A DNA stretch of 64,000 nt. Source: Chloroflexota bacterium. GTDB lineage: Bacteria; Chloroflexota; Anaerolineae; Anaerolineales; Anaerolineaceae. Numbering within the stretch: position 1 is the first letter of the stretch; every line of letters begins with the position of its first letter. The notes under the pieces were generated by a model. The model did no database searches and had not been told where the DNA came from. It worked only from the letters and a program-made list of their open reading frames with translations. The position numbers and the translations under genes are program-made. The stretch covers positions 62,001 to 126,000 of the forward strand of contig JAKPNN010000021.1 in assembly GCA_029548365.1 (NCBI GenBank), in the 5' to 3' direction. Shown here piece after piece: positions 7,197 through 64,000 of the stretch.

Positions 7197-7206
7197 GGAG
7201 GCCCCT

Positions 7207-7404: not shown

Positions 7405-7419
7405 AGTTGGGATTGCACG

Positions 7420-7788: not shown

Positions 7789-7857
7789 TTGATAACTTAA
7801 GCTGTAAATACCCTGCGATAACCGTTCCCCCATCTTTTCAGGAGGTAACCAACCCGA

Positions 7858-8082
7858 ATGCCCATCTACGAATACACCTGTCAGGATTGCAATGCCCGAT
7901 TTGAAATCCTGCGTCCCATGCAAGAAGCCGATGCTTCCCTCACCTGTACACAATGCCAGGGACACCATCTCAAACGCAGTCTGTCCCTGTTTAATGCTTC
8001 CAGCGCTGGTCGCATCATTGCCGGAGGTGGGCAATGCAGCACCTGTTCCGGCGGCTCTTGCAGCTCCTGTGGGTCCCATTAG
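7858..8082 (+). CDS. FmdB-family zinc-ribbon protein
   Basis: A 74-residue protein beginning MPIYEYTCQDCNARFE, with paired CxxC motifs (CQDC, CTQC) that form a zinc ribbon. A Cys/Ser/Gly-rich tail (CSTCSGGSCSSCGSH) follows. AGGAGGTAA lies 12 bases upstream. Members often occur as small regulators or metal carriers; the role is not established. Confidence 0.88.
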   Translation: MPIYEYTCQDCNARFEILRPMQEADASLTCTQCQGHHLKRSLSLFNASSAGRIIAGGGQCSTCSGGSCSSCGSH

Positions 8083-8084
8083 CC

Positions 8085-41026: not shown

Positions 41027-41062
41027 CTTTATTGTCACTCCATTCTTTGAAATTTAGATCAT

Positions 41063-47449: not shown

Positions 47450-48538
47450 TTACCCGGCATTGATCAAATTCTCTGTCTGTTTGTCATAGAGGTTAATGGT
47501 ATCCTTTCTGAAACATAACCATATTTTTTGATCCATTTCAATACTGCTGACGCCAATCTCTTTCACAGAAAGCTCAAATTCTCCCTGGCGGGCAATAATT
47601 GTTGTATCTGCCCCGGAAGGCAAAACCGAATAAGCGATAAATTCTTCACCATGCTCAACAGGTTCAAGGCTGATTTCAATATCCTCCGGGCGAATACCCA
47701 GCACCACTTCGCCACTGGCGTCTTTGGTGTTAACCGGCACATGAAATTTTCCGACCTGAACCAGGTCCTTACCTGAAACTCGGCCCTCAAGCAGGTTGAT
47801 TTTTGGATTGCCAATGAAATCTGCAACGAAAAGCTTCGAGGGATAATGGTAAACCTGATTGGGTGTGTCAAATTGCTGAACCACACCCAGTTTCATGACA
47901 GCAATTTTCGTCGACATGGTCATCGCTTCAAGCTGGTCATGCGTTACGTAAACCGTTGTTGCTTTAGAATCGTGATGCAGGCGTTTGAGTTCCGTGCGCA
48001 TGTCAATTCGCAGGCGGGCATCCAGGTTTGAGAGCGGTTCATCAAGCAGAAATACACTCGGTCGGTAAGCCAGCATACGCGCCAGGGCAATTCGCTGCTG
48101 CTGACCGCCACTCATCTCTCGCGGGTAGCGTTCTTCATATCCATCCATTTGTACTTGTGCCAACGATTCCTTGACGCGTTGATCCATATCTTCCTTTGAC
48201 ATCTTCTGGATTTCAAGGGCAAAGGTAATATTTTTGTAGACGGTCATATGCGGCCACAGAGCATAGTTCTGGAACACCAACCCCAGGTCACGTTGACCAG
48301 GCGGCAGCGAGATTCCTTTTTTACGCGAAAAAACAATTTTATCCGCTATGACGATTTCACCATTGTCTGGTTCTTCCAGGCCGGAAATGCAGCGCAACAG
48401 CGTTGTTTTCCCACAACCGGAAGGTCCCAACAAAGTTATGAATTGGCCGGAGTCAATTTCCAGGCTGAGGTCATCGACCGCGACGACATCGCCAAAGGTT
48501 TTTGTGACATTTTCAATAATGATGGTTGGTTTAGGCAT
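47450..48538 (-). CDS. ABC transporter ATPase (FbpC/PotA-type)
   Basis: A 362-residue nucleotide-binding subunit: Walker A GPSGCGKTT, Q-loop VFQNYALWPH, signature MSGGQQQRIALARML, Walker B VFLLDEP, and switch His in VTHDQLEA. A C-terminal TOBE domain follows (VVLGIRPEDIEI). It lies between permease and binding-protein genes, with GAGGAG before the start. Confidence 0.93.
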   Translation of the reverse strand: MPKPTIIIENVTKTFGDVVAVDDLSLEIDSGQFITLLGPSGCGKTTLLRCISGLEEPDNGEIVIADKIVFSRKKGISLPPGQRDLGLVFQNYALWPHMTVYKNITFALEIQKMSKEDMDQRVKESLAQVQMDGYEERYPREMSGGQQQRIALARMLAYRPSVFLLDEPLSNLDARLRIDMRTELKRLHHDSKATTVYVTHDQLEAMTMSTKIAVMKLGVVQQFDTPNQVYHYPSKLFVADFIGNPKINLLEGRVSGKDLVQVGKFHVPVNTKDASGEVVLGIRPEDIEISLEPVEHGEEFIAYSVLPSGADTTIIARQGEFELSVKEIGVSSIEMDQKIWLCFRKDTINLYDKQTENLINAG

Positions 48539-48548
48539 GAGCTCCTCT

Positions 48549-50390
48549 TTATTTTGATGATTCGAGACCTTTTTTCAGGCTGCCACCCCTGAAACGGCTG
48601 ATGATTGCATTTCCAATCAGTACTAAAACAATTAAGACAATGATGACAGCGTTGGCTTGCTGTTCGTTTCCATTCTCAATATAACGCATAGTCATGCTGG
48701 AGAGCACAGCTGTAGCAGGCGTCACTAACAGGATAATCAATGATAGTTCACGCATGGTGGTGATGAAATTCAGCAGGAATGCCGAGACAAACCCTGGGCT
48801 GGTCAGCGGAAAGATGATGCGTTTGAATCTCTGCCAGGCATTCGCTCCTGAAATGGCTGCTGCCTCTTCCAACTCCGAGCCGACTTGCATCATGGATGAT
48901 ACACCTGTCCGTGAGGAGTGGGGAATATGTTTGGCAACCGAGACCACCACCAGCAGGGCAAAAGTACCATATAATGGAGGTAAACCAAAAAAGCTTTTTG
49001 TGAACATCGAGATATAAACCGCCCCAAAAGCAATGCCCGGAATCAAATAGGGAATAAAAGCAAGCTGTTCCACAATTTTTGAAAGGCGTGTCCCGCGTCC
49101 TTTAACAATGGCATAACCGAGGATCACCCCGATAACCCCGCCGATGAAAGATGCCCACAAAGAAAGGCGGATTGAATTCCAGGCCGCCCGGTAGATTGCC
49201 TTATTAAGTAAAATGCCGGGGTCGCCTTGGTTAATACTCAAATCACTTTGTCCAATCCAGTGGTGCAGGGTGAAGTTGCTCAGACTGTAATTTCCAGACC
49301 TTAACATAAACGTGCTGTAGATTAAAACAGCCAGGGGCAAGATGGCGATGGAAAACTGAACGATCACAATCAACACGATAAATACCGGGCGCCAGCCGCG
49401 CAATTTCATTTTCTGCGCCATAAAACCACGCCCGCCAATAGTTTCATAACTGCGACGTGTCCCAATTAGCTTTTGATTGATCATAACCGTCGTCATTGAA
49501 AACAGGATTAGCACTATAGCAGTCACGAAGCCATCGCCATAATTTCCAATCCCCATATTCGAGCGTAACATGGTCGAGAGCGTATAATATCCGACAGGAA
49601 CACCCAGAACGTTGGGGCCTCCAAAAGTTCCCATGGTTTTTGAAAAGGTCATGATGAAACCCGAGGCAATTGCTGGCAGTACCAATGGGAAGGTGATCTT
49701 TCTCAAGATGCGTCCACGACTGGCTCCAGCCAGATCACCTGCTTCTTCCAGGGATGAATCGATTGAAAGCAAAGCTGCAGATACGAACAAGAAGTAAAAG
49801 GTATAGTAATGCAGACCGCAGGCAATGATGATCGGTAAAGCGCCGTTTGATAACCAGATTGGCGGCGCTATTCCGGTAAAGAATTGAAGCAAACCGGGCA
49901 CTCCCCCTGATACCGACGTGCTTTTGAAAATCACTTTCCAGGCCAGGGATATTGTCCACGAGGGCATAATATAGGGCACCGTAGCCAGCATGTGAATAAT
50001 TTCTTTTCCAGGTATATCCGTGCGTACGACCAGCCAGGCCATACCTCCGCCCATAATGAGCGCCAGAAAGGTGGCTCCCAGGGAGATCACCAGGGAGTTG
50101 ACCAGGGGTTCATAAGTCATGATCTTCGCGATTTGCCCGATCAGCATCCGTCTCCAGTGATACGAGGTCATATCTCCAAGAGAAGCTTCCGGAATGACGC
50201 GTAAATCAAGTTCCGACACAGTGATCGTTGTCACGAACATGGACCAGAGCGGAATGATCACCAAATAGAACATCACCACAACCATGATCAAAGACAAAAA
50301 TACGTACGGCGTTGTCAGCCAGCGGAAAAACCGCCGCAGTCTAGCTAACCATAATGAATCCTGTGCTTCGGCCAGAGAATAAGTTGACAT
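48549..50390 (-). CDS. ABC transporter permease, duplicated FbpB/AfuB-type
   Basis: A 613-residue permease with 12 or so membrane segments. It carries two copies of the permease domain, each with a coupling loop: EEAGDLAGASRGRILRKITFP and EEAAAISGANAWQRFKRIIFP. Single-chain double permeases are normal for ferric- and hexose-phosphate-type importers. Starts after AAGGAGC. Confidence 0.92.
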   Translation of the reverse strand: MSTYSLAEAQDSLWLARLRRFFRWLTTPYVFLSLIMVVVMFYLVIIPLWSMFVTTITVSELDLRVIPEASLGDMTSYHWRRMLIGQIAKIMTYEPLVNSLVISLGATFLALIMGGGMAWLVVRTDIPGKEIIHMLATVPYIMPSWTISLAWKVIFKSTSVSGGVPGLLQFFTGIAPPIWLSNGALPIIIACGLHYYTFYFLFVSAALLSIDSSLEEAGDLAGASRGRILRKITFPLVLPAIASGFIMTFSKTMGTFGGPNVLGVPVGYYTLSTMLRSNMGIGNYGDGFVTAIVLILFSMTTVMINQKLIGTRRSYETIGGRGFMAQKMKLRGWRPVFIVLIVIVQFSIAILPLAVLIYSTFMLRSGNYSLSNFTLHHWIGQSDLSINQGDPGILLNKAIYRAAWNSIRLSLWASFIGGVIGVILGYAIVKGRGTRLSKIVEQLAFIPYLIPGIAFGAVYISMFTKSFFGLPPLYGTFALLVVVSVAKHIPHSSRTGVSSMMQVGSELEEAAAISGANAWQRFKRIIFPLTSPGFVSAFLLNFITTMRELSLIILLVTPATAVLSSMTMRYIENGNEQQANAVIIVLIVLVLIGNAIISRFRGGSLKKGLESSK

Positions 50391-50484: not shown

Positions 50485-51372
50485 TTATCCATTACGTTTA
50501 CTGGTAAAGCGATTTAGTTTTTCACGTAACGCATCCAGTTTATCCAACAAAGGCATAATCTGATCCTGCTCTTCACTGGCATAAGTGAGCAGCAGGGCGT
50601 TGATTACAGTCATCGGCACAACCAGGGAGTGAAATTCACCCACAGGGCCCCGTTGTGCTGCCAGGACCACATCCACGCAGTCATCCAAAATAGATCCCAA
50701 CGTATCGGTCACTATGATGGTCTTGCAGCCGGCCTGCCGACTGTAATCTAACAACAACTGCAAAGCCGGGTTTTGATCAAAAAAGCAGATCACAAAAACC
50801 AGGTCGGTTGATTGTAAAGTAATCAGGGATTCAATTAATTCGCGGCCCGAGCTGATGAGTGGAATGATGTCCTTACCAAAACGCCGTAAACGCAACTCCA
50901 TCAAGCCAACCAGGGGAATCGATGGCCCTAAACCAAACACAAAAATCCGTTGATGCTGACGCAGCAGGTCAACAGCCTGTTTCATTTCATTTCTGTCGAT
51001 GGAAAGAACTGCCTGCGAAAGATAATCAATTTCCGTCGCCGTCAACCGTTCCAGGATGTCGCCGTCAGAGACCATATCCTGCAATCGGTCACGCAGGCGG
51101 GAAGAGTGAGTCACACGTCGGCGAAAGTTATCCTGCAGTGCAGCCCGCATGGCAGGGAAACTTTCAAAATCAAGTTTACGCGCAAATCGCACAATGGTGG
51201 CTTCACTTAGATTCAAGCGTTCTGAAATTTCCCCCGCAGAGAGGAAGGCTGCCTCCTCCTGGTTCTTCCTGATGAAGTTAGCTATAATTTTTTCGCTCTT
51301 CGTGAGCTCAGAATAACGATCACTTATTAATTGATTGAGATTAAAGCCCTGCGCACCATTGGCTTTATTCAT
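50485..51372 (-). CDS. RpiR/MurR-family transcriptional regulator
   Basis: A 295-residue regulator with an N-terminal helix-turn-helix (LSAGEISERLNLSEATIVRFARKLDFESFP) and a C-terminal SIS domain (IFVFGLGPSIPLVGLM, IPLISSGRELIES) that binds phosphosugars. This predicts that the operon responds to a sugar phosphate. GAGGAGATAAG precedes the start. Its promoter carries a GTGAAATTTC site that also occurs at the head of the operon. Confidence 0.92.
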   Translation of the reverse strand: MNKANGAQGFNLNQLISDRYSELTKSEKIIANFIRKNQEEAAFLSAGEISERLNLSEATIVRFARKLDFESFPAMRAALQDNFRRRVTHSSRLRDRLQDMVSDGDILERLTATEIDYLSQAVLSIDRNEMKQAVDLLRQHQRIFVFGLGPSIPLVGLMELRLRRFGKDIIPLISSGRELIESLITLQSTDLVFVICFFDQNPALQLLLDYSRQAGCKTIIVTDTLGSILDDCVDVVLAAQRGPVGEFHSLVVPMTVINALLLTYASEEQDQIMPLLDKLDALREKLNRFTSKRNG

Positions 51373-51500: not shown

Positions 51501-52691
51501 TTAAATTCTGCCATTTAGCTTGTTTTGTATAGCAGGAATCGCCCACAGGGTTGCTGCTGTTGTGTCAACCAGTAGATCGCAATGGGCCATTTGCGGACGG
51601 TAAACCTGTTCCAGCATGATAAATTGTTCTCTAAAATAGCGGTTCAAGAAATAAGTCCTTTCATATTTCTTGCGATAGTCCATATCTCTCCGCCACTTGC
51701 GCTTCAGCCTGATATCATCATCGGTCAGGTACATGGCTTTAATCCCAATCAGTTTGGCGACTTCAGCATCAATAAAAGGGAAATTCCCTTCCATAAAGAT
51801 GATTTCAGCGGGCTCAATGACCTGTTCCTGAGACCCGGGTCTGCGTCTTCCCATTTCGTCATGACTGGACATAGCTGAAATAAAATCATAGCTCGGCGTG
51901 TTGACACTTCTGCCCAGTAGAACCTCCTGCAAACAGGCTTTAAACAGCTCACCGTGCAGGGCTTTCATTCCAAGGGAGTCGATGCCCCGTGCTTCGCGAT
52001 AGTCCCTGTCCAGCAAGAAATGATCGATTTCAACCGTTGTCACCCGCTGTCCCGCAGAGACAAAATACTCGGTTAATCGCGCAGTGATTTCAGTTTTGCC
52101 AGCGCCAGTCTGCCCGGCAATCGCAATGATGACCGGTCGACCTAAAATGTCCACCAATGTCATCACCAGGTCCATAAAACAACGATCAATATCGGCATTG
52201 GCTTCCATAAATTCCCTGTAGTTGACCGCGTGTCGTGCTTCAAACAACTTCTGTTTGGGCTCAAATTGCCGATAAGGCGCGCCACCCAGGCGAGATATGA
52301 TCTCATCCGTGTAATGATGGGTCCGCACAAAAAAGTAAAACCCACGAACATCAAAAGTAAAATGCTGCCGAACCCATTCGGGGGTATAAAATCCAGTTAC
52401 CAGTCCAGCCATCAGGGTTTGGGTCAGGGCGCGCACCTGCGCGTCCATAACTGGTTTTCCATCCACCATGGGCCTGAGTGCAATACTGTGAAAAAATGCG
52501 CTGTCCTTGATCCTGCGCTCGATATCAACACATGGTTCCCGGGCTACCGACTGCCATCCACCCTCAGGCTCCAGGGTTTCAAGTCCATAGCCGAACTCGA
52601 AAACTTCCATTTCAGCAATAGCAGCGTTGACAGCCAGCATGCGTTGATAAAGAAGGTCAACAAAGGATTGATCGGTGTGTTGATTGTCCAT
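51501..52691 (-). CDS. P-loop small-molecule kinase with N-terminal extension (copy B)
   Basis: 396 residues. Residues 1-185 are a helical extension of unknown role. Residues 188-396 are a uridine-kinase/phosphoribulokinase-like fold with Walker A IAGQTGAGKTE, VEIDHFLLDRDYRE, MEGNFPF (Walker B region) and the lid LKRKWRRDMDYRKKY. Members phosphorylate nucleosides, pentoses, pantothenate or glycerate. It is 3 bases downstream of an archaeal-type mutase gene, a layout repeated by its paralogue. Confidence 0.82.
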   Translation of the reverse strand: MDNQHTDQSFVDLLYQRMLAVNAAIAEMEVFEFGYGLETLEPEGGWQSVAREPCVDIERRIKDSAFFHSIALRPMVDGKPVMDAQVRALTQTLMAGLVTGFYTPEWVRQHFTFDVRGFYFFVRTHHYTDEIISRLGGAPYRQFEPKQKLFEARHAVNYREFMEANADIDRCFMDLVMTLVDILGRPVIIAIAGQTGAGKTEITARLTEYFVSAGQRVTTVEIDHFLLDRDYREARGIDSLGMKALHGELFKACLQEVLLGRSVNTPSYDFISAMSSHDEMGRRRPGSQEQVIEPAEIIFMEGNFPFIDAEVAKLIGIKAMYLTDDDIRLKRKWRRDMDYRKKYERTYFLNRYFREQFIMLEQVYRPQMAHCDLLVDTTAATLWAIPAIQNKLNGRI

Positions 52692-52694: not shown

Positions 52695-53897
52695 TCAGGC
52701 TCCAAATTTCTCAAAACGGTCAGCATGGGCGATTGCCAGGGGCATCACCTGCACTGCGGGAATGGTTCCCAGGCTGCCTGCAGCACAGGCGCGTTCACCA
52801 AATTCACGCCTGCCATCCGGCCGGCAGTTAGCAGCATACAAAAGCAGCGGCACCGGGTGCCAGGAGTGCGATTTCATTACTGCCGGCGAAGAGTGATCGC
52901 CTCCAATCAGCACCACATCCGGATTCAAAGCCAGCAGCCGGGGGAGTAAAAGATCGAATTCTTCAATAGCTCGCACTTTACCGTCAAAGTCACCGGCTTC
53001 GCCACAGGTATCCGTCTTTTTAAAATGAAGGTAGAAAAAGTCGAAGGCATCCCAGGCTGCCTCAAGCGTCGAGAATTCATCCGCCAGGCTGATTCCGTTT
53101 ACATCCAGCACCTGCATGCCTGCCAGCCGTGCGACGCCGCGATACATGCCATTGACGGCAATGGCTGCTGCATTTACACCAAACCTTTCTTTAAAAGAAG
53201 GGATAACCGGCGTCAGTGCGAATCCACGTAGCATGATTCCATTAGCGGGTTGTTCGTCCTCTAACACCTGGTGCGCTCGAGCAATGAATGCATTGACCAA
53301 TTCAGCCGCCTGTTCCGAATCCTCCGTCAGCGCCCTGACCGCTAAGGGATGGACACCTGTGATTAGCGGATCCGAACCGCTCAGGTTAGCGCCCAGCCCG
53401 GCTTTGCGCATGACGAAAACAAAACGATGTTCTTTGACCAGTTCAATGAAAATTTCCACCCCTGGAATCTCGATTTCTCGCAGGCGCTCAACCAGCCTGG
53501 CACTTTTCTCACTGGCTAACCGACCTGCCCGTCGATCCAGGATGGTGCCATCTTTATCCAGTGTGCAAAAATTTCCCCGGGCAGCAATATCATCTGATCC
53601 CAGGGCAAAATCGACGCCCAACGCTTCCAAAGCGCCGCGCCCAATTGCATTTTCAAGCGGGTCATATCCAAATATGGCCAGGTGTCCAGGGCCGCTGCCG
53701 ACGGTAACGCCCGGGGCAAGGGGGACCGTCAGCCCAAGGGAAGAGCGCTCAGCCAATTCATCCAAATTGGGCGTATGGGCTTGTTCAAGTTCGGTTTTCC
53801 CACCCGGGAAGCGCGGCAAACCGCCCAACCCATCTAAAACGATCAGGACAATCTTGGTGGTATTTTTCCGGTTCAAATCCTGATAAAAGCTTTTCAT
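52695..53897 (-). CDS. Archaeal-type cofactor-independent phosphoglycerate mutase family (ApgM)
   Basis: A 400-residue alkaline-phosphatase-superfamily enzyme. Metal and nucleophile motifs are VLIVLDGLGG, GSGPGHLAIFGYDP (catalytic Ser), FDFFYLHFKKTD and VVLIGGDHSSPA. In its family it moves phosphate between C2 and C3 of glycerate, though some relatives act on other phospho-sugars. It sits between two P-loop kinases. Confidence 0.87.
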   Translation of the reverse strand: MKSFYQDLNRKNTTKIVLIVLDGLGGLPRFPGGKTELEQAHTPNLDELAERSSLGLTVPLAPGVTVGSGPGHLAIFGYDPLENAIGRGALEALGVDFALGSDDIAARGNFCTLDKDGTILDRRAGRLASEKSARLVERLREIEIPGVEIFIELVKEHRFVFVMRKAGLGANLSGSDPLITGVHPLAVRALTEDSEQAAELVNAFIARAHQVLEDEQPANGIMLRGFALTPVIPSFKERFGVNAAAIAVNGMYRGVARLAGMQVLDVNGISLADEFSTLEAAWDAFDFFYLHFKKTDTCGEAGDFDGKVRAIEEFDLLLPRLLALNPDVVLIGGDHSSPAVMKSHSWHPVPLLLYAANCRPDGRREFGERACAAGSLGTIPAVQVMPLAIAHADRFEKFGA

Positions 53898-53900: not shown

Positions 53901-55094
53901 CTATTTCCGAATACCGGCCAGCATGGATTGATGTTCAGGCAGTACCCACACAGCAGCTTGGCTCGTGTCAATGAACAGGTCACAGGCTTGCGTCAACGGA
54001 AGATACAGTTCAACGGCGCGGATAAACTGGGTGCGAAAATAGCGGTTGACAAAATAGGTCGAATCGTATTTTTTGCGCAAATCAATATCTCTGCGCCATT
54101 TGCGTTTTAACCGAATGTCATCATGGGTCATATAAACAATCTTCATCCCCACCAGCTCAGCAACCTCATCCTCATGGAACGGATAATTTCCTTCTAAAAA
54201 GATGATGTCCGCCGGGTGGATGGTAAGCGATTGCTTCCCGGGTCTGAGTTGACTGTTGAGATCATGGGAGGATGTCGTGTTTAGAAAATCATACCTGGGA
54301 ATTTCTGCTGACTTTCCTGCACGAATCGCCTGCATGGCTTTGATAAAAAGATCGTAATGGATCAAGTTCTTGTCAAGCTTTTTTCCCTCACGAAAAGCGC
54401 CGTCTTTGTAAAAATTGTCCATTTCGATCGTCTCCACGTGCAAGCCTTTGGCTGACAGATGCTCTCGAATGCGGGAGATGATCTCTGTTTTGCCTGCACC
54501 TGTTGGGCCGATTATGGTTAAGAACAGCGGAGGCGAAAGCTGCCGCGTGAACGTCTCCACAATTTCCATCAAAGCGGTGTCAACGTCTTTGTTCGCACGG
54601 CTGAATTCTCGATAACCGATCTCGTGCAAAACTTCCAACGCGTGTTGTTTTTGTTCAAATTGCAGAAAGGGTTGCCCACCAAAGCGGTCTTTCAGCTCCG
54701 GAAGGTAATTGACCGAGCGCGCAAAAAAGACAAAGGCACGAAGATCAAAATAGAAATTCTGATTGACCCAATCGGGTAAATAATCGCCCAGCGCCAGCCC
54801 AACCAGCAGCATCCGGGTTAAGTGCAATACCTGCCTATCGAGCTGAATGCTGCCATGCTTAACCGGCTTAAATTCGATCTTCTTGTAAAAGTTCAGGTCC
54901 TCGATCTGCGCTTCAACGGCAGAGGTGGGTGATAATTCCACGCTGCCCCATCCATCGCCGGGAATCAGGTTATTCAGGCAATATTGGAATTCATATAACG
55001 CTAGGGTTTTAACCCCGGGGTAAATGTCTCCCATTCGTTGATAAAGCGTTTCTGAAAATTTTTCTTGATCTTCAAGATTCATCGCACTCACCAT
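53901..55094 (-). CDS. P-loop small-molecule kinase with N-terminal extension (copy A)
   Basis: 397 residues and a clear paralogue of copy B in both domains. It has Walker A IIGPTGAGKTE, EMDNFYKDGAFREGK, FLEGNYPFHEDE and LKRKWRRDIDLRKKY. The start overlaps the stop of the permuted mutase by one base, so the two are probably made together. Substrate unknown. Confidence 0.82.
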   Translation of the reverse strand: MVSAMNLEDQEKFSETLYQRMGDIYPGVKTLALYEFQYCLNNLIPGDGWGSVELSPTSAVEAQIEDLNFYKKIEFKPVKHGSIQLDRQVLHLTRMLLVGLALGDYLPDWVNQNFYFDLRAFVFFARSVNYLPELKDRFGGQPFLQFEQKQHALEVLHEIGYREFSRANKDVDTALMEIVETFTRQLSPPLFLTIIGPTGAGKTEIISRIREHLSAKGLHVETIEMDNFYKDGAFREGKKLDKNLIHYDLFIKAMQAIRAGKSAEIPRYDFLNTTSSHDLNSQLRPGKQSLTIHPADIIFLEGNYPFHEDEVAELVGMKIVYMTHDDIRLKRKWRRDIDLRKKYDSTYFVNRYFRTQFIRAVELYLPLTQACDLFIDTSQAAVWVLPEHQSMLAGIRK

Positions 55095-56674
55095 CAGGCA
55101 TATACCGTCCCAATCCCATTGACCATGGCTTCATAAGCCATCTGCACCTTACCATAATTGCCATCCCGGTCAAGCGCCAGCCCTCGCCCAACCCCGGTAA
55201 CAATTTGACCCAATCCAATCCTGCGCAGTTCGTCATCCAATTTTTTTAGCATTAAGGGTGCACTGCCGGGTTCTGTACTGCGTCCATCAAAAATCAGGTG
55301 CAAGTAGACTTCATTTAATTGCTGTTCCTTTGCCATTTTAATCAGCGCCAGGGGGTAGTCAATCGAGCCGTGGGAGCTCTTTTCGCTCAACAATCCGATC
55401 AAATGCAGCGCAGAACCCCGAGCTTTGACCTTCTGGATGGCTTTCAGGAAAACTGGATTGCTGGAAAAAGAGCCATTCCGCAAAGCCAGGTCCAGGCGGG
55501 TGTCATCCTGCAGCACCACCCTCCCTGCGCCAATGTTGCTGTGACCCGCCTCAGAATTGCCCGGCTTGCCAGCTTGCAGACCCACAGCTTCCCCCGATGC
55601 AGACAGGTTTGAAGACGGATATTGACTCATCAGCTCATCCCAAAAAGGAGTGTCTGCAAGATGAATGGGGTTGGTCTCATCTTTGCTGCCCAGGCCCCAA
55701 CCATCGAGGATGATCAACATTACCTGCCGGTCCGGTCCCCATACATGCCCCGGCAGAAGGTTTTTCCCCGTCATTTCGGCAGCCGGGTCCAGGCCAAGCA
55801 TCGCCAGGATCGTCGGCGCCAGGTCTGAAAGGCGACCATCCTTCGGGACAAGCCCCGTATCCGAATTTTTATCAAGCACGATCAACGGCACGAGATTGGT
55901 GGTATGAGCCACGTGTGCTTTGCCCGCGTCCGTGCGCATCAATTCAAGGTTGCCATGGTCAGCGGTGATGATCACCACCATATCCTCAGCCAGGGCAGCA
56001 GTCACCACCCGGTTAAGGTGATGATCAACGATCTCAGCACACTCAATTTTCGCTGCATCGTTGGATGTGTGCCCAATCACATCCCCATTGGCAAAATTGG
56101 TCACAATCAGCCTGTACGGGCCGCTAACGCTCCGGATCAGTTCATCTGCCACTTCTGCCAGGCTCAGTCCTGGGACCTGGTCAAAGGCCACGCCTTTAGG
56201 GGAAGGGAACCGCTTACGGGTTTCGCCTGGAAACGGTTCATTACGTCCGCCATTAAGGAAAACAGTGATATGGGCAAATTTCTCCGATTCGGAACACCGC
56301 AATTGCTGCATTCCTACCTGGCTGACCAGCTCACCCAACGTGTTTGAAACCGCGTCGGGCGCAAAGGCCACTGGTAGATGAAGGAATTTGTCATGATAGA
56401 GCGTTAAGATCACAAAATCAGATAAGTTTAACGGGACGCGTTGAAAATGCGAAAACCCATCTTCGGTAAAAGCCTCCGTTAGCTCAATTTCGCGTTCGCC
56501 ACGGCGGCAGCAGAAGATAACCCCATCCCCATCTTTCACCAACCCCACAGGTTCGCCATTATCATCAACCCGTACCAGGGGTTCCATCGAATAATCGATC
56601 TGCCCGCGGCTGTAGGCTTCCTGTACAGCGGCAGCCATTGATAGGCCTCCGAAAAAACTGTGTTCGTTATCCAT
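55094..56674 (-). CDS. Circularly permuted cofactor-independent phosphoglycerate mutase (GpmI-like)
   Basis: 526 residues whose two halves are in swapped order relative to GpmI. Residues 14-305 match the C-terminal half: GVIFCCRRGER, ANGDVIGH, ITADHGN, AHTTN and the end MTGKNLLPG. Residues 318-526 match the N-terminal half: MLIILDGWG, GKPGNSEAGHSNIGAGR, SSHGSIDY and DGRSTEP. All metal ligands are present: D198, H202, D239, H240, H257, D324 and the catalytic Ser374. Substrate-site changes are visible (DGRD to DGRS, HSH to HGS). The reading frame is unbroken. It heads the kinase-mutase block. Confidence 0.85.
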   Translation of the reverse strand: MDNEHSFFGGLSMAAAVQEAYSRGQIDYSMEPLVRVDDNGEPVGLVKDGDGVIFCCRRGEREIELTEAFTEDGFSHFQRVPLNLSDFVILTLYHDKFLHLPVAFAPDAVSNTLGELVSQVGMQQLRCSESEKFAHITVFLNGGRNEPFPGETRKRFPSPKGVAFDQVPGLSLAEVADELIRSVSGPYRLIVTNFANGDVIGHTSNDAAKIECAEIVDHHLNRVVTAALAEDMVVIITADHGNLELMRTDAGKAHVAHTTNLVPLIVLDKNSDTGLVPKDGRLSDLAPTILAMLGLDPAAEMTGKNLLPGHVWGPDRQVMLIILDGWGLGSKDETNPIHLADTPFWDELMSQYPSSNLSASGEAVGLQAGKPGNSEAGHSNIGAGRVVLQDDTRLDLALRNGSFSSNPVFLKAIQKVKARGSALHLIGLLSEKSSHGSIDYPLALIKMAKEQQLNEVYLHLIFDGRSTEPGSAPLMLKKLDDELRRIGLGQIVTGVGRGLALDRDGNYGKVQMAYEAMVNGIGTVYA

Positions 56675-56698: not shown

Positions 56699-57454
56699 CT
56701 ATTCGTCTAAGCCGTCCAGATTGATGTGGGGGCTTTCTGGAAAGAGTGTCAGTAAATCCTCAAAGTTGTGCAGGACAACATTGGGCTGGTTATCTTCAGT
56801 GACCTCAATCTGGGCCAGTTTTTCAGGTTGATTGATGATCACCGAAAGACCAAAACCTGCCGCATGAGTACCGGTCACATCCCTGTTCAGGTTGTCACCA
56901 ATGTAAGCGCAGTTCTCCGGGCTGACACCGATTTCCCTGGCCGCATGGTCATAAATAGCAGGGTCGGGTTTACGTATTCCTAAAACCGAGGATAAGACCA
57001 CCGATTTGAAATATTGTGCCAGCCCATCTTTTTCAAGCCATTCGGGAATTTCCCGTGTGCCGATTAAATTGCTGATGATGCCCAGGATATAGCCGCGTTG
57101 GTGTAATGTTTTGATCACCGCTTCCATACCCTGCCCTAAAACGCGGTTTCCACCGGCTTGCCGGTATTGGTAGGTCAGTTCTTCGCCGAGAGGAGCGATT
57201 TTTTCTGCGGGAAGCTCCGGCACCAACCAGCGTGTCCATAATTCAGCATCCGGAGCTTCGCGCATGGTTTCAAACGCCCAGTCTCGATAGCCTTGATAGC
57301 GTTCATTTAACTGGGCGTAAACAGTGTCTGGGTCTTCATCCGCACCGATCAGCTCCGCAATCCGCTGTTTGGCAGCCAACTGGTGGGCTTCATCCTTGAC
57401 CACAAATCGAAGGGTGTTGCCAAGGTCAAAAAAGACCGCAGAAATTTCAGGCAT
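56699..57454 (-). CDS. HAD-superfamily protein with DxGNT motif
   Basis: A 251-residue single-domain HAD protein: FFDLGNTLRF (nucleophile Asp kept, second Asp Gly), IISNLIG, GIRKPDPAIY, and GDNLNRDVTGTHAAG. Similar to the gene before it and to the HAD parts of the fusions. The start overlaps the upstream HAD gene by 8 bases. Confidence 0.85.
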   Translation of the reverse strand: MPEISAVFFDLGNTLRFVVKDEAHQLAAKQRIAELIGADEDPDTVYAQLNERYQGYRDWAFETMREAPDAELWTRWLVPELPAEKIAPLGEELTYQYRQAGGNRVLGQGMEAVIKTLHQRGYILGIISNLIGTREIPEWLEKDGLAQYFKSVVLSSVLGIRKPDPAIYDHAAREIGVSPENCAYIGDNLNRDVTGTHAAGFGLSVIINQPEKLAQIEVTEDNQPNVVLHNFEDLLTLFPESPHINLDGLDE

Positions 57455-58187
57455 CCTGGTTCCTCGGCGGGAAGATGTCCAAAAGTTCGTCGATCCTGGT
57501 AATGGTCCGGTCGGGATTAATCAATACATCCTCCGGCATTTTCCTCAAGGTATCCGGCTCTTCAATCAAGATCATCAGCCCATATCCAGCCTCCCGCGTG
57601 CCCTGGATATCCCGTAAGGGATTGTCGCCCAGATAAGCGCATTTGGCAGGGTCAACACCAATTTCCCGGGACGCCAGTAAGAATATTTCAGGATTGGGTT
57701 TCCGAAGTGCAACAATGGAGGAAAGTATCACTGTTGAAAAATATTCCCTGACCTCATCTTCCTCCATCCAGTCCGGGATCTCTGTTTCGGTAATGGTGTT
57801 GGCAATAAGCCCCAATTTATATCCACGGCGATGAAGTTCAATGATGGTTTCCTTAACACCTTCTCGCGGCACCCGTCGGCCTTTAATATCCCGCCAATGG
57901 CGGGTAAGTTTGCTTGCCTGTGGAGCGATCAATTCTTCAGGATAATCAGGCAGCATCCACTTTGACCATAATTCAGTTTCTCTCACGTCCAACAGGATGG
58001 TTTTAGCCCGTTTTCGATAGACCTTATAACGATCTTTAAGCATTGAAATAAACTCATCCAGGGGCTGTTCTGCACCGACTGCAGTATGCAGATCTTCTGC
58101 AGCCTTTTGAGAAAACTCAGGATCTTTAATCACAATGCGCAAAGTGTTTCCGACATCCAAAAAAATGGCTTCAATATTGGGATTCAT
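57447..58187 (-). CDS. HAD-superfamily protein, first gene of the minus-strand operon
   Basis: About 246 residues from ATG 58187 (MNPNIEAIFLDVGNTL), with GGAGG 6 bases upstream; a longer frame to 58289 includes the promoter and is rejected. Motifs are LDVGNTL, IANTITE, ALRKPNPEIF and GDNPLRDIQGTREAG. As in the other HAD genes of this operon, the second Asp of DxDxT is absent. Confidence 0.86.
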   Translation of the reverse strand: MNPNIEAIFLDVGNTLRIVIKDPEFSQKAAEDLHTAVGAEQPLDEFISMLKDRYKVYRKRAKTILLDVRETELWSKWMLPDYPEELIAPQASKLTRHWRDIKGRRVPREGVKETIIELHRRGYKLGLIANTITETEIPDWMEEDEVREYFSTVILSSIVALRKPNPEIFLLASREIGVDPAKCAYLGDNPLRDIQGTREAGYGLMILIEEPDTLRKMPEDVLINPDRTITRIDELLDIFPPRNQDA

Positions 58188-58230
58188 GTTACCTCCGTTT
58201 GATTTAAGATGACTTTCAAAAGGTTGACGT

Positions 58231-58340: not shown

Positions 58341-58356
58341 TTGCACACGTGTGCAA
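58341..58356. promoter_or_regulatory. LacI-type operator, 16-bp perfect palindrome
   Basis: TTGCACACGTGTGCAA is a perfect palindrome with a central CG, the shape bound by LacI-family dimers. It covers the first transcribed bases of the plus operon and ends next to the ribosome site of the LacI gene, so autoregulation is likely. Confidence 0.85.
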
Positions 58357-58365
58357 AGGAAAAAA

Positions 58366-59400
58366 ATGGCAACTACCATAAAAACCATCGCAAAAATAAC
58401 CGGCGTGTCCCATTCTACGGTCTCCAGAGCCCTCAGAGGCAGCCCCCTGGTCGCAGATGTCACTGCCGAACGCATCCGGATAGCCGCAGAGCAACTGGAC
58501 TATCTGCCCAGCGCAGCCGCCCGCAGCTTGAAGACCAAGCGGACTCATGTTTTGGGTGTTATCCTCAGTGGCATTGCGGATCCTTTCTTCAGCGAGGTAT
58601 TAAATGGTATCGAAGGCGCCGCCCATGCTGCCGGTTACAGCCTGTTTATCGGCTCTTCCAATCATGACGCAGACAAAGAAGCGCGAATTGTCCAGACCAT
58701 GCTCGAGCAGCGCATCGATGGTGGCATCATTTGCTCCACGCCGGTGAGCATTGAGCGCTGGCGGCAATTCCCAACCGATCGATTTCCAATCGTAGTGATC
58801 AATAACCAGGCTGCTGATCATTACAATTTCTCCATTTACCACGATGATATCGATGGCAGCCGCCAGCTCGCGCGCCACTTGATTGAGCTCGGCCACAGAA
58901 AAATTGCCTATCTGGGTAATTCACATTCAGGGAAAACCACCCTCGACCGTTTGAGCGGCCTGCAAGAAGAAATGGAATTCCAGGGGCTGTCTGTTGCCCC
59001 TGATCAAATTCACCATGCACCTGGCGGATCTCTGCAGATGGGCGCCGAAGGCATGAACTACTTTCTCAACCTGCCCCATCCACCGACCGCGGTGATGTGC
59101 TTCAACGATTTGCTCGCCATTGGCGCGTTAAAAGCCTGCCGCCAGGCTGGCGTTCGCGTTCCGGATGAGATCTCAGTCACCGGCTTTGACAATATCGCCT
59201 TCTCTGAATTCTCAGTGCCTCCGTTGACAACCCTCGATCAGCCAAAATATGAGATTGGGCGTCAAGCTGCACAATTGCTGTTGAGTTTGCTTTCAGAAGA
59301 GTCCGGCCTCCACAGTCACACACAGGGCGTCAAGGTACTTAAAGGAAGGTTGTTGGTCAGAGCTACTACTGCAAAGCCAAGGAAAAAGGAAACGCTGTGA
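58366..59400 (+). CDS. LacI-family transcriptional regulator
   Basis: About 344 residues from ATG 58366 (AAAGGA upstream); an in-frame GTG at 58351 lies inside the operator. It has an N-terminal helix-turn-helix (TIKTIAKITGVSHSTVSRAL) with the hinge SAAARSLKTKRT. A sugar-binding-protein-like effector domain follows (VMCFNDLLAIGALKACR, SVTGFDNIAFSE). It is expected to repress the operon it heads until a sugar acid or polyol is present. It overlaps the next gene by 4 bases. Confidence 0.93.
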   Translation: MATTIKTIAKITGVSHSTVSRALRGSPLVADVTAERIRIAAEQLDYLPSAAARSLKTKRTHVLGVILSGIADPFFSEVLNGIEGAAHAAGYSLFIGSSNHDADKEARIVQTMLEQRIDGGIICSTPVSIERWRQFPTDRFPIVVINNQAADHYNFSIYHDDIDGSRQLARHLIELGHRKIAYLGNSHSGKTTLDRLSGLQEEMEFQGLSVAPDQIHHAPGGSLQMGAEGMNYFLNLPHPPTAVMCFNDLLAIGALKACRQAGVRVPDEISVTGFDNIAFSEFSVPPLTTLDQPKYEIGRQAAQLLLSLLSEESGLHSHTQGVKVLKGRLLVRATTAKPRKKETL

Positions 59401-60857
59401 GAAACGACTTCGAAGATCTGAAGATCATTGAAAGCTCCCTGGTCGCTGATAAGGATGCAGCTTATGCACTTTTGCATGATGATGGTGAGTTCAAGTTAGC
59501 CATTCTCGAAACAGGCGTGGGTGACTGGCAGGGAGAACGCACCCCAAAAAACACGCATTACCTGGTGATTGCCCCCAAAACCCCGCATAATACAGCGCTT
59601 CTGAGAAAAAGACTTCCCTGGCTAAATCCCGGTTTATTGGGACTGCGCACCTCAGCCGGAATGGGCGACCGTCTGGGCTGGGCAACGCCCGGGCACATCC
59701 GTGCTGTGCGGCGAGTAGGCGGCAAAATTTCCCCGATTTTTGCTCAGCAATCCATCCGCGAGATGAGCCGCACCAGCCGGACCGCCCAGCAGGTCATCGA
59801 TGATGCCGTTTGGGGCGTCTTCCAAGAATCCTGGCAGGATGGGTTTGGCGCTGATGCCGACCACCTGAAAACTGAAGCGGATATCGACACTTGCCTGCAA
59901 GCGGGGTTCACCTTTTACACCATCGACCCCGGCGAACATGTCGACAATCGCGCTGAAGGCGCCTCGCGATCCACATTACGTGAATTAGCCGCCCTATTAA
60001 ATGAAGACATCAGCCCTAAAGCGAGCGGTTTACTGGATAAATCCATCAATATCGAAGGTCACGAACTGGTCTTTGATGAAGCGCGACTGCTCAAAGCTGT
60101 GGTGAAATACGGAAAAGCCGTGGCGCATGTAGCCAGGATGTACCACCACCTCATCGATCGCGCGGGCAGCCACCCTGTTGAATTGGAAGTCTCTGTTGAT
60201 GAAACCGCGCAACCCACAAGCATGCTCGAACATGCCTATATCGCCAGCGAACTGAAGCGATTGGGCGTTAACTGGGTCAGCCTGGCACCCCGTTATTGCG
60301 GTCATTTCCCCAAAGGCGTGGATTATATCGGGGACCCTCAAGCTTTTGAAGCTGATATCGCCCGCCATGCAGCTGTCGCCCGCCACTTTGGTCCTTACAA
60401 ACTCAGCTTACATTCAGGGTCAGACAAGTTCAGCGTTTACGAAGCAGCCATGCGGCAGACACACGGCCTGGTCCACCTGAAAACAGCCGGCACAAGTTAC
60501 CTGGAAGCGCTGCGCACCATTGCAGAGCAGGATGTCAATTTCTTCAAAGAAATTTATAGCTTTGCCCGAGAGCGTTACACGGTCGATCGGGTTAGCTATG
60601 ACGTGTTCGGTGAGCTTGAGAACGCGCCTCACCCCGAGCAGGTCACAGATTGGCCCGCACTATTAGATCAATTTGATGCGCGTCAGATATTACATGTCAC
60701 CTTTGGCTCAGTTCTGAACGAACGCAACCCGGAAGGCCATTTTCGCTTTTATACCGATTTTGCCAGGATCATCAAATCCAACCGGGAGCTGTATGCCTTA
60801 AATTTGGAAAAGCATTTTATCAAACATTTGCAACCTTTTGCTAATCCCTTAGCTTAA
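59397..60857 (+). CDS. uxaE: Tagaturonate epimerase (UxaE) family protein
   Basis: A 486-residue TIM-barrel epimerase that interconverts D-tagaturonate and D-fructuronate in Thermotoga and relatives. The segment QQVIDDAVWGVFQESW followed by GFGADADHLKT is characteristic as I recall the family. Later motifs include LEVSVDETAQPT and LSLHSGSDKFSVY. GTG start within the lacI stop (GTGA overlap). It would link inositol or hexuronate degradation to the fructuronate branch. Confidence 0.85.
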   Translation: MRNDFEDLKIIESSLVADKDAAYALLHDDGEFKLAILETGVGDWQGERTPKNTHYLVIAPKTPHNTALLRKRLPWLNPGLLGLRTSAGMGDRLGWATPGHIRAVRRVGGKISPIFAQQSIREMSRTSRTAQQVIDDAVWGVFQESWQDGFGADADHLKTEADIDTCLQAGFTFYTIDPGEHVDNRAEGASRSTLRELAALLNEDISPKASGLLDKSINIEGHELVFDEARLLKAVVKYGKAVAHVARMYHHLIDRAGSHPVELEVSVDETAQPTSMLEHAYIASELKRLGVNWVSLAPRYCGHFPKGVDYIGDPQAFEADIARHAAVARHFGPYKLSLHSGSDKFSVYEAAMRQTHGLVHLKTAGTSYLEALRTIAEQDVNFFKEIYSFARERYTVDRVSYDVFGELENAPHPEQVTDWPALLDQFDARQILHVTFGSVLNERNPEGHFRFYTDFARIIKSNRELYALNLEKHFIKHLQPFANPLA

Positions 60858-60896: not shown

Positions 60897-61940
60897 ATGG
60901 AAAAAATGAAAGCACTTGTATTGAAAGACGTTGGAAAACTGGTCTTTGAAGACCGGCCTATTCCCCAGGTTAAAGACCCTGATGATGTTGTTCTGAAAAT
61001 TAAAGCCGTGGGTATCTGCGGAACAGACCTGAAAATTGTGGAAGGCAAGCACCACTACAAACTCGACACCGTCCTTGGTCACGAATTTTGTGGAGAGGTC
61101 GTGGATATTGGTACTCACGTACATCATATCAAAGTCGGTGACCGCGTGGCTGTTGACAATAACATTCGCTGTGGTTTTTGTGAATTTTGCCGGATGGGAC
61201 TCACCAGCCAGTGTGTTGACATCAAAACCAGCGCCCTGGGCGTGATGCGTGATGGCGGTTATGCTGAATACACCATCGTCCCGGAAAAACAATGCTACGT
61301 TCTGCCTGATGAAATTGACGACGTCGCTGGCACCCAGGTGGAAACCCTGGCAACCGTCGTTAATGGCATGAATGCTCTGCAGATGCTGCCCTACGATTAC
61401 GTGCATGTGATTGGTTTTGGGCCCATCGGTTACCTTTTTGCCCAATTTGCTAAAAACATTGCCGTCAAAGTCTCTGTATCCGAGATTGACCCCTTCCGGC
61501 TTGACCTGGCGCACAAATGTGGGCTGACTGCCTGGAACCCACACGAAGTCGACCTGGTAGAGAAGGTCAACGAGTTCACCTATGGCAGCAAAGCTGACAT
61601 TGTCATCGAAGCGACCGGCAACGGTTTTGAAGAAGCTTTGAAGATCGTCACCCCGGGCGGAACAATTTTACCCTTCGGCATGGATTCCAGTATCACCACC
61701 ACCATTGTCCCTAACCAGATTACCCGCTGGGCAACCAAGATCATCGGCCTGTACCTGGGTCAGAACACCATGCTGCCTTCCGTTCGTATTTTCCGGGAAA
61801 ACACCCTGGATATGAGCCAGTTCTACACCAAAGTCATTCCTCTTGAGGAAGGTCCCAGTGCTTTCAAAGACCTCGGCCTGGATCTCGACACGCTTACCCG
61901 CGGACCCAAGAGCGCCATGAAAATCGTCATGATTCCTTAA
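60897..61940 (+). CDS. Zinc-dependent polyol/sugar dehydrogenase (MDR family)
   Basis: A 347-residue medium-chain dehydrogenase. The catalytic zinc site is GICGTDLK and GHEFCGEV; the structural zinc Cys residues are in RCGFCEFCRMGLTSQC. The cofactor-binding region has VIGFGPIGYL. AAAGGAGA precedes the start. By context it oxidises inositol or an inositol-derived polyol, but sorbitol- and threonine-type dehydrogenases look similar. Confidence 0.88.
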   Translation: MEKMKALVLKDVGKLVFEDRPIPQVKDPDDVVLKIKAVGICGTDLKIVEGKHHYKLDTVLGHEFCGEVVDIGTHVHHIKVGDRVAVDNNIRCGFCEFCRMGLTSQCVDIKTSALGVMRDGGYAEYTIVPEKQCYVLPDEIDDVAGTQVETLATVVNGMNALQMLPYDYVHVIGFGPIGYLFAQFAKNIAVKVSVSEIDPFRLDLAHKCGLTAWNPHEVDLVEKVNEFTYGSKADIVIEATGNGFEEALKIVTPGGTILPFGMDSSITTTIVPNQITRWATKIIGLYLGQNTMLPSVRIFRENTLDMSQFYTKVIPLEEGPSAFKDLGLDLDTLTRGPKSAMKIVMIP

Positions 61941-62008: not shown

Positions 62009-63133
62009 ATGCCTGATAAACCAATCCCTCAAGGATTATTACCCACCAGCGAACCTGACCTGTTTTTTGAAGACAATCCTGTCGGGCGCTTGAAAAAATC
62101 GGTTTGGGAAGCCAGCGATGCCGAAATCGACGCAATTTTGGAAGATTACGGTATCCCATCTCCCGTCGAGTGGGCAAAACCTGGCTCGTATATTCAAACC
62201 ACCACCCGCTGGCAGGTGGAAGCCAACCGTAAGAAAAATGACGTTGTCTTCATTCCCGTTGGCTGCACCGAGCTGCACGGACAGCATCTGCCCAGCGCGG
62301 CTGACACCCTGTACGTCAGCGCCATCTGCGAAGGTGTGCGCCGGTTCACCGCCAAACGCGGCGCCCCGGTCAACCTGGCTTTGCCGCCGCTCAACTATGG
62401 CGGACATCCCTACCACCACTTGGGCATGCCCGGCACGGTCATCGTGCGGGAACACGTGGTGCGCGAGATGATGATCGATGTCATGTTGGGCTTGTGGAAT
62501 GATGGTTTCCGGAAGCAGTTAATCGTCAATAACCATGGCCAGCTGTGGATGCTTGAATCCGCTGTGCAGGAATTCCAAAAACGCTACCAGTTGCCGGGTA
62601 TCTTCCGTGTAATCGACTGGCACCGCGGCGTGCGTGAATTTTTCCGCTCCGATGACCGCGGCGGCACCATGAGTACGAACTTTGTCCACGCTGACGAATC
62701 AGAAACATCGTTGAGCCTGCTGCTACACCCCGAAATGGTAGACATGGACTATGCCGTGGATACCGAGGGCATCAGCTACCTGCCAGAAGGTCATTTCGAC
62801 AAATCCGTCGACCCCTTTGGTCGGCCCAGCCGCTGGTCTGAAGGCGAAGGTCACTTTGCAATTGAAATTGCAGCCACACCCGAAGGCGTTGTGGGTAAGG
62901 CTAAATCTGGCGCTGCCCAAAAAGCCAAGCGGCCGATGGCAGCCATCCTCAAATACTTAACCCTGTGGCACGATGATGTTTTGGATGCCTTCCCGGCAGG
63001 CGAGGTTCCCCCGGTAGAAAAAGTGACCCTGCGCACAGAAAAGGACATGGAGCCCTACTTGCGTGAACCCCTGAGCGAAGGTTGGAAGACAGTCTACGGT
63101 ATCCCGCGCATTGGTCAGGGCACCGAAGTCTGA
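62009..63133 (+). CDS. Creatininase-fold hydrolase, IolN-like
   Basis: A 374-residue member of the creatininase superfamily: PVGCTELHGQHLPSAAD (metal ligands), YGGHPYHHLGMPGT, NNHGQLWML and HADESETSLSLL. In Thermotoga the family member IolN hydrolyses a diketo-inositol ring to 5-keto-L-gluconate. The flanking dehydrogenases support that role here over creatinine hydrolysis. AAGGAG lies 9 bases before the start. Confidence 0.84.
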   Translation: MPDKPIPQGLLPTSEPDLFFEDNPVGRLKKSVWEASDAEIDAILEDYGIPSPVEWAKPGSYIQTTTRWQVEANRKKNDVVFIPVGCTELHGQHLPSAADTLYVSAICEGVRRFTAKRGAPVNLALPPLNYGGHPYHHLGMPGTVIVREHVVREMMIDVMLGLWNDGFRKQLIVNNHGQLWMLESAVQEFQKRYQLPGIFRVIDWHRGVREFFRSDDRGGTMSTNFVHADESETSLSLLLHPEMVDMDYAVDTEGISYLPEGHFDKSVDPFGRPSRWSEGEGHFAIEIAATPEGVVGKAKSGAAQKAKRPMAAILKYLTLWHDDVLDAFPAGEVPPVEKVTLRTEKDMEPYLREPLSEGWKTVYGIPRIGQGTEV

Positions 63134-63166: not shown

Positions 63167-64000
63167 ATGAAAGACAAAATGCAAGGCGTGACCCTGGTAG
63201 CAGATTGGGACCCGAAACCAGGTTTTAAACTGGGCCCCAAAGATATTGAAGGACGCCAGACTTACCTGGGCAGCCAGGTATGGCGCAACCCCAGAATTGA
63301 AATCCGCGAATACGATATTCCCGTTCCCGGCGATGAAGAGGTTTTAATCGAAGTTAAAGCCTGCGGTATCTGCGGTTCTGATGTCCACATGGCGCAGGCT
63401 GAAGCCGATGGCTACATCTTTTACCCTGGCCTGACGGGCTTCCCCAGCATCCTGGGGCACGAGCTTTCCGGCGTGGTGGTCGAGGCGGGCAAAAATGCCT
63501 ACGACAAAAACACCAACAAGCCCTATAAGGGCGGCGAAGAAGTGACCACCGAAGAAATGTTGTGGTGCGGTTCCTGTAAGCCCTGTGCTGATGGCTGGCC
63601 CAACCACTGTGAGCGCCTGGACGAGATCGGCTTTAACGTTCACGGTGCCTTTACCAAATACCTGGTTGTGCCTGCCCGCACCCTGTGGAGCCTGGAACCC
63701 CTCAAAGAGCACTACCCCGAAGATAAGCTCTTCTTAGCCGGCAGCCTTGTGGAGCCCACCTGCGTGGCTTACAATGCTGTTATTGAACGCGGCGGGGGCA
63801 TCCGCCCCGGCGACCGTGTGGTGGTCCTGGGCGGCGGCCCGGTTGGTTTAGCTGCCTGTGCCATTCTCAAACGCGCTGGAGCCTCCAAGGTGATCATTTC
63901 CGAAACCCAGGAAGATCGCGGTAAGATGGCCCTCAAACTCGGCGCAGATTACCACATCAACCCTCTGAATGAAGATTTCGCTGAGACCGTCCTGGAATTA
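63167..64000 (+). CDS. Zinc-dependent dehydrogenase, scyllo-inosose 3-dehydrogenase (IolM)-like, 3' end cut by window
   Basis: The first 278 residues of a medium-chain dehydrogenase with an unusual N-terminal extension (VTLVADWDPKPG, VWRNPRIEIREYD). Zinc sites are CGICGSDVHM, ILGHELSG and MLWCGSCKPCADGWPNHC; the cofactor-binding region has VVLGGGPVGLAA. This arrangement matches IolM-type enzymes, as I recall them, that oxidise scyllo-inosose to the diketone that IolN cleaves. AAGGAGA precedes the ATG. The gene continues past 64000. Confidence 0.87.
   Translation, partial: MKDKMQGVTLVADWDPKPGFKLGPKDIEGRQTYLGSQVWRNPRIEIREYDIPVPGDEEVLIEVKACGICGSDVHMAQAEADGYIFYPGLTGFPSILGHELSGVVVEAGKNAYDKNTNKPYKGGEEVTTEEMLWCGSCKPCADGWPNHCERLDEIGFNVHGAFTKYLVVPARTLWSLEPLKEHYPEDKLFLAGSLVEPTCVAYNAVIERGGGIRPGDRVVVLGGGPVGLAACAILKRAGASKVIISETQEDRGKMALKLGADYHINPLNEDFAETVLEL

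Follow-up and report, generated by a model that had tools for sequence, protein, structure and literature searches.

A circularly permuted homolog of cofactor-independent phosphoglycerate mutase in Chloroflexota and Bacillota and its linkage to inositol genes

The stretch analysed here (the window) comprises 64,000 nucleotides of contig JAKPNN010000021.1 from a Chloroflexota bacterium of the family Anaerolineaceae (assembly GCA_029548365.1). It contains a gene for a homolog of cofactor-independent phosphoglycerate mutase (iPGM, GpmI) whose two halves occur in swapped order (Table 1). The open reading frame (ORF) has no internal stop, and the GpmI profile TIGR01307 covers it in two stretches summing to 474.9 bits, above the curated cut-off of 330.65, with homology across both halves; in the best stretch residues 13-307 fall on profile positions 213-504. 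The phmmer alignment to structure 1EJJ gave 174.9 bits for the former N-terminal half (91 of 210 aligned positions identical) and 214.7 bits for the former C-terminal half (123 of 287), at the ranges listed in Table 1. As the two halves map to 1EJJ in reverse order, the ORF is, as judged from its sequence, a true circular permutation of iPGM, and the order that defines GpmI (phosphatase N-segment, inserted transferase domain, phosphatase C-segment) is absent. The new termini lie at 1EJJ positions 213/219, within the transferase domain. An earlier reading of this DNA, made from the sequence alone, had proposed the swapped halves, the intact frame, termini opened in this domain and a linker near residues 306-318, and all four points are borne out, the linker being placed by phmmer at residues 308-315. 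The protein matches PF01676 (Metalloenzyme) with 205.6 bits (gathering cut-off 24.3), as expected for the alkaline phosphatase superfamily.

A structure model was obtained with AlphaFold2 from 68 permuted sequences, with a mean predicted local distance difference test score (pLDDT) of 92.4 and a predicted template-modelling score (pTM) of 0.83; near the linker the pLDDT is 95 (block 301-310) and 92 (block 311-320). Foldseek identified 22 matches in the PDB at E<=0.001 and all 22 are iPGM. The alignment to 1EJJ is sequential, with a TM score of 0.46 over 277 columns, and none of the 22 extends beyond 322 columns. About half of the model is covered in this way, which is the expected outcome because a sequential aligner matches one half of a permutant.

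The active site is described in 1EJJ numbering on an alignment of 68 permuted rows. The core is formed by the two-metal site and the catalytic serine (D12, S62, D403, H407, D444, H445 and H462), all seven kept in 68/68 rows. The corresponding residues in the window are D198, H202, D239, H240 and H257 in the now N-terminal half, and D324 and the catalytic S374 in the now C-terminal half, which also carries S466, the equivalent of D154. Seven further residues (H123, R153, R185, R191, R261, R264 and K336) are likewise kept in every row. The sequence-only reading, which had the metal ligands and serine surviving and some pocket residues altered, holds in both respects. D154 is Ser in 68/68 permuted rows and Asp in 23/23 canonical relatives, all of which keep DGRD. 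YNF is replaced by CCR (Y258-N259 by CC in 68/68; F260 by R in 67 and K in one) and GGV by KSS (G120 by K in 67 and R in one; G121-V122 by SS in 68/68), while S124 to G, A265 to E and Y186 to G are found in all 68. The kept and changed residues together suggest the same chemistry in a pocket that may be larger and more basic. On sequence grounds the protein is an iPGM homolog that departs from GpmI in two defining features, the order of the halves and D154. The roles of the metal site in the Caenorhabditis elegans iPGM and the list of contacts with 2-phosphoglycerate were taken from PMC5382265.

Relatives of the transferase half were sought by pattern in 84,980 species genomes, and 89 were confirmed. 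The best 80 of these 89 loci comprise 48 from Bacillota, 31 from Chloroflexota and one from a metagenome-assembled genome titled Deltaproteobacteria. Among them 73 could be parsed and the order was readable in 69, being permuted in 69/69; the carriers include an isolate, Levilinea saccharolytica KIBI-1, where the permuted gene is at L047:8780-10369. In a search of closer relatives (101 genomes, the window's own plus 100) matches at E<=0.001 came from 27. The permuted form was identified in six further genomes from five genera of the same family, with 58-62% identity and one of them split across two contig ends. The 15 genomes of the same genus gave no full-length match and weak matches at most, and the distribution is therefore patchy. 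An unrooted tree was built by a quick method from 33 permuted rows and 23 canonical ones, with long-branch warnings for three loci (L012, L014 and L138); a single branch, with a support of 100, separates the permuted rows from the canonical ones. Two permuted copies were observed in one genome (G131, contigs C8 and C102; locus L100). No description of a permuted iPGM was found in a literature search judged mainly from titles and abstracts, covering few subscription journals and no bioRxiv, which agrees with the sequence-only reading.

The family is widespread and contains two subfamilies, here called type A (that of the window) and type B. When 298 genomes from the same class were scanned, 63 gave a match, and 20 regions were fetched from these: four type A (L158-L161), eight divergent permuted genes of type B (L143-L146, L148, L149, L153 and L154) and eight canonical genes with DGRD. 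Type B belongs to other Chloroflexota families and is characterized by the motifs FYSSHG(SV) and GRRGE, with D154 replaced by Gly in 8/8. An unpermuted ancestor with the type A pocket was not found among these 20 regions. The type B genomes contain ApgM over cut-off in 8/8 and dPGM over cut-off in 0/8. A gene of histidine-phosphatase type lies directly downstream in three type B loci (the profile was run on one), and a CysQ/IMPase-like gene, under all cut-offs, was identified in one.

The neighbours of the permuted gene in the window are collected in Table 1. The adjoining kinase gene starts before the permuted gene ends, its ATG overlapping the stop codon of the latter. The N-terminal extensions of about 185 amino acids in the two PRK-like kinases, which were identified in Chloroflexota loci only, have no Pfam match, and neither has a 534-residue ORF at 35668-37272. 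The solute-binding protein (SBP) was modelled with pLDDT 88.2 and pTM 0.78. Its nearest folds are, in order, MctA, IbpS, STM0429, MotA, VcA0625 (a glucose 6-phosphate binder), FutA and AfuA (also a glucose 6-phosphate binder), followed by others; normalised to the query, the TM scores are about 0.5-0.6. The divergent operon, formed by UxaE, an IolM-like dehydrogenase, IolN and a partial IolM-like gene, corresponds to the Thermotoga-type inositol pathway.

Table 1. Features of the window around the permuted gene, by position.
Feature	Coordinates	Strand	Basis
PfkB kinase, TM0415 type	40142..41038	minus	K171, R229, R232, F221, M266 equivalents present
HAD-TIM barrel fusion	41063..42742	minus	HAD motif I FFKIEGT, without nucleophile Asp
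HAD fused to xylose-isomerase-like TIM barrel	42768..44462	minus	profile
Tandem HAD protein	44466..45911	minus	profile
SBP	46030..47337	minus	fold nearest MctA (Mg-citrate)
ABC ATPase, UgpC/PhnT2-like, under their cut-offs	47450..48538	minus	profiles
ABC permease, two BPD_transp_1 stretches in a single chain	48549..50390	minus	profile
RpiR-family regulator with SIS domain	50485..51372	minus	profile
Second PRK-like kinase	51501..52691	minus	profiles
ApgM-type iPGM	52695..53897	minus	PRK04135, 551.5 bits (cut-off 468)
PRK/uridine-kinase-like kinase, ~185-residue N-terminal extension	53901..55094	minus	profiles
Permuted iPGM gene, whole (526 residues)	55094..56674	minus	ORF, TIGR01307, phmmer, AlphaFold2
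Former N-terminal half of iPGM, now C-terminal	55100..55729	minus	residues 316-525 = 1EJJ 4-213
Linker, ~8 residues (308-315), old C-terminus to old N-terminus	55730..55753	minus	phmmer
Former C-terminal half of iPGM, now N-terminal	55754..56629	minus	residues 16-307 = 1EJJ 219-509
HAD-family enzyme, motif I DLGNT	56699..57454	minus	profile
HAD-family enzyme, motif I DVGNT	57447..58190	minus	profile
LacI-family regulator, first gene of divergent operon	58351..59400	plus	profile
Tagaturonate epimerase UxaE	59397..60857	plus	PF16257, 485.1 bits
Zn dehydrogenase	60897..61940	plus	best NCBIfam IolM, 171.6 bits (cut-off 450)
IolN, 3-dehydro-scyllo-inosose hydrolase	62009..63133	plus	308.8 bits (cut-off 245)
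IolM-like, scyllo-inosose 3-dehydrogenase, runs beyond window	63167..64000	plus	391.8 bits (cut-off 450), 273/389 positions

Neighbours were counted as BLAST families in the 80 loci plus the window, many loci being short; ORFs were called mechanically with antisense ORFs kept, and only families supported by a profile or by a window homolog were used. The most frequent were HAD-type ORFs (60 loci), followed by the ABC ATPase (37), the SBP (31), the fused permease (27), ApgM (22), PRK-like kinases (18), the TM0415-like PfkB kinase (18), a H+-pyrophosphatase (10) and MgtC (9), the last two with profile support in one locus each. Regulators of the LacI and RpiR families were also conserved. The H+-pyrophosphatase with profile support is a membrane protein encoded near the permuted gene (L064:11296-13380, PF03030, 891 bits). 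The HAD cluster comprises 151 ORFs. Motif I was recognised in 128, at 1-5 per locus, and is lacking in the other 23, which are mostly misframed or partial. Position D+2 of the motif is Gly in 126/128, Ala in two and Asp in none, that is DxG rather than DxD. This motif and the PhnT-like ATPase could also hint at catabolism of phosphonates (2-AEP), but YihX has DxG as well and is among the PDB matches of the HAD enzyme directly upstream of the permuted gene (56699..57454).

Inositol genes were sought in 40 genomes (the window's own, G000, and G101-G139). IolD was identified in 26 (25 over cut-off) and IolN in 14 (all over cut-off), so that either was present in 38/40; the exceptions are G132 and G133, where neither was found. 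By comparison, 14 named control genomes gave an IolD match in three and an IolN match in one. In 21 of the 40 genomes IolD or IolN lies on the same contig as the permuted gene and no more than 30 kb away, against 0.92 expected. Linked inositol catabolic genes (IolN/IolM or IolB/D/E/G) were seen in detail in the window and in locus L058. In the latter, IolB, IolD and IolG score above the respective cut-offs and IolE falls short (215.8 bits against 290); a transaldolase-like protein is also encoded there. Two different inositol pathways are thus found divergent to the same cluster, the Thermotoga type in the window and the IolB/D/E/G type in L058. The PTP-like phytase (PF14566) was identified in only 4/40 genomes and was discarded as a regular partner, though in one genome (G117) it lies inside the cluster: the ORF of 330 amino acids (L067:5481-6473) is between two HAD genes, scores 85.5 bits (cut-off 27), has 3f41 as best PDB match (E 1.3e-103) and also resembles 1u24.

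The PfkB kinase of the cluster matches TM0415 in the PDB with E values of 2.3e-44 (L117) and 9.9e-40 (window), the top match of the window kinase being another PfkB protein, 7e4l (1.4e-40). With positions read from motifs, the basic residues that bind pyrophosphate (PPi), K171, R229 and R232, were identified in 18/18 kinases, as was M266. At the position of F221 the window kinase also has F, and with it all five residues of the TM0415 type, whereas the other 17 of the 18 have V. One kinase of this family is fused to a NUDIX domain and adjoins an MgtC-family gene (L081:11075-12382). According to PMC5931981, TM0415 is the PPi-dependent kinase of the Thermotoga maritima inositol cluster and makes inositol 1-phosphate from PPi; since its Km for inositol is 12 mM, the authors suggested another natural acceptor.

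Other phosphoglycerate mutases (PGM) were sought in 40 carrier genomes (G101-G140) and identified in 38. GpmI in canonical order was over cut-off in 21; the remaining 19 comprise 14 with dPGM over cut-off, three with ApgM on another contig (G103, G108 and G109) and two (G114 and G136) where the GpmI, ApgM and dPGM profiles found no other PGM. The window's own genome, 70.7% complete, has the ApgM of the operon as the sole other PGM found. With another PGM in 38/40 carriers a housekeeping role is unlikely, and the permuted enzyme is probably not the housekeeping PGM.

The neighbouring genes (IolD/IolN, the TM0415-like kinase, the phytase, the ABC importer and the HAD enzymes) lead towards inositol phosphates and not to phosphoglycerate. 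The substrate is suggested by these neighbours, and the best reading of the enzyme is a mutase or phosphotransferase acting on inositol phosphates. In its full form, which we judge slightly favoured by the evidence, the permuted iPGM would retain the two-metal, serine-linked phosphoryl-transfer chemistry and, with a remodelled pocket, would act as a mutase in the utilisation of inositol phosphates and not in glycolysis. The ABC system would import a phosphorylated inositol, either inositol phosphate or glycerophosphoinositol; the glucose 6-phosphate binders among the nearest folds of the SBP are counted in favour of the proposal. The HAD enzymes would strip or shift phosphates. The permuted enzyme would take a phosphate onto Ser374, in a ping-pong similar to that of iPGM, the inositol would turn in the closed pocket and the phosphate would return to another hydroxyl. 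The TM0415-like enzyme would interconvert inositol monophosphate and inorganic phosphate with inositol and PPi, and the freed inositol would enter the adjacent iol pathway. A more tentative extension, unlikely as a whole, is that inositol phosphates are trimmed and brought by the mutase to the isomer that the TM0415-like enzyme accepts, that this enzyme runs in reverse (inositol phosphate and inorganic phosphate to inositol and PPi) and that a neighbouring H+-pyrophosphatase converts PPi into ion motive force. Phosphorylated inositol would then be taken up by an anaerobic route not described before, in which the energy of the phosphate ester is gained as PPi.

Several observations weigh against an inositol-phosphate substrate. 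The best fold match of the SBP binds Mg-citrate (TM score 0.52-0.59 by query), and identity to the window SBP is only 21-27% for the SBPs from Bacillota and from the rumen Chloroflexota loci. ApgM (21/21 ORFs outside the window) and the PRK-like kinases (24/24) were identified in Chloroflexota loci only, and the proposal explains neither. Apart from the window, the TM0415-like PfkB kinase was identified in 17 loci, all of Bacillota; as far as the flanks were retrieved, the other Chloroflexota loci did not show it. By BLAST no inositol cluster was seen in seven type B loci, with the exception of two weak matches, an ABC ATPase in L168 and an IolD-like match of 28% in L169. The linkage within 30 kb has P ~8e-25 under random placement, a value that overstates the case and does not prove a function, given the kinship among carriers and a count that covered carriers and named controls but no relatives lacking the permuted gene. 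The phytase of L067 had no relative by tblastn in the other loci (1/80), other phytase families not being searched. The pocket arginines that are retained also fit phosphoglycerate. Finally, the locus titled Deltaproteobacteria (L101) carries a glycerate kinase (7501-8718) and a glycerophosphodiester phosphodiesterase (GDPD, 6812-7549) directly upstream of the permuted gene, and neither IolD nor IolN was found by profile in its genome.

Misassembly, frameshift or chimera might be suspected in a genome of 48 contigs and limited completeness, with no full-length match in any of 15 same-genus genomes, but is ruled out for practical purposes by the permuted order in all readable loci, the isolate included, and by the supported branch; its probability is negligible. 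An ordinary glycolytic PGM permuted by chance would agree with the TIGR01307 sum, with the retention of the metal ligands, the serine and the substrate-binding Arg, His and Lys residues, with the ApgM-type PGM in the same operon and with the genomes where no further PGM was found (G114, G136 and, apart from that ApgM, the incomplete G000). The presence of another PGM in nearly all carriers, the loss of D154 in every permuted row while every canonical row keeps it, and a catabolic-looking operon with an ABC importer make it improbable.

In another explanation, the enzyme could handle phosphoglycerate or a glycerate phosphate derived from imported glycerol compounds, for example glycerophosphoinositol, with the inositol passing to the iol pathway. 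The pairing of kinases and mutases in the operon, the conserved pocket arginines, GDPD in L085 and L101 and the glycerate kinase gene adjoining in L101 are in its favour, but such candidates were profiled in these two loci only and D154 is lost. Glycerophosphodiesters, moreover, yield glycerol phosphate and not glycerate, and we regard this explanation as quite improbable. A phosphatase, or a phosphotransferase acting on sugar-acid phosphates, in which the change at D154 uncoupled the back-transfer, would be in line with the loss of this residue in both subfamilies (Ser in type A, Gly in type B) and with the histidine-phosphatase-like gene downstream in three type B loci. However, the cluster already contains several HAD enzymes and other pocket residues remain, and this option appears rather unlikely.

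If an inositol-phosphate mutase is indeed encoded here, an old fold whose halves are swapped would perform an enzyme activity of which the literature search described above, at the level of titles and abstracts and with the same coverage of journals and preprints, returned no description. Metabolic enzymes of several domains that are permuted in nature, with an inner domain opened, are, to our knowledge, rare. Here the permutation is fixed within a clade that spans two phyla, and it goes together with a lost pocket Asp and a probable change of pathway; the family would thus offer a natural test of whether permutation aids a new function. Automatic pipelines would probably label these genes as glycolytic GpmI because the summed halves exceed the TIGR01307 cut-off. 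The linked cluster suggests how anaerobes of gut, rumen and digesters may use phosphorylated inositol. It also makes testable the role of inositol kinases that depend on PPi, for which PMC5931981 leaves the natural acceptor open.

Among known systems, GpmI/iPGM (TIGR01307; 1EJJ and 1O98) shares with the permuted enzyme both halves, the seven metal and serine residues and the seven further residues from H123 to K336; the differences are the swapped halves, D154 to S, YNF to CCR, GGV to KSS, Y186 to G and the inositol-linked context. The archaeal-type iPGM (ApgM/PRK04135) belongs to the same alkaline phosphatase superfamily and is encoded in the same operon, but has the canonical order and PF10143 as the insert rather than PF06415. 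The importers of the AfuABC/VcA0625 type, which carry sugar phosphates, are similar in SBP fold and in ATPase and permease families, whereas the best fold match of the window SBP is MctA. The closest counterpart of the neighbourhood is the T. maritima cluster TM0411-TM0416, as described in PMC5931981, with IolN, IolM-like, UxaE and TM0415-like kinase counterparts in the window. T. maritima, among the control genomes, gave no TIGR01307 match at E<=0.001 and one at E<=10, and to the elements of its cluster the window adds the permuted iPGM, the ABC importer and the HAD set.

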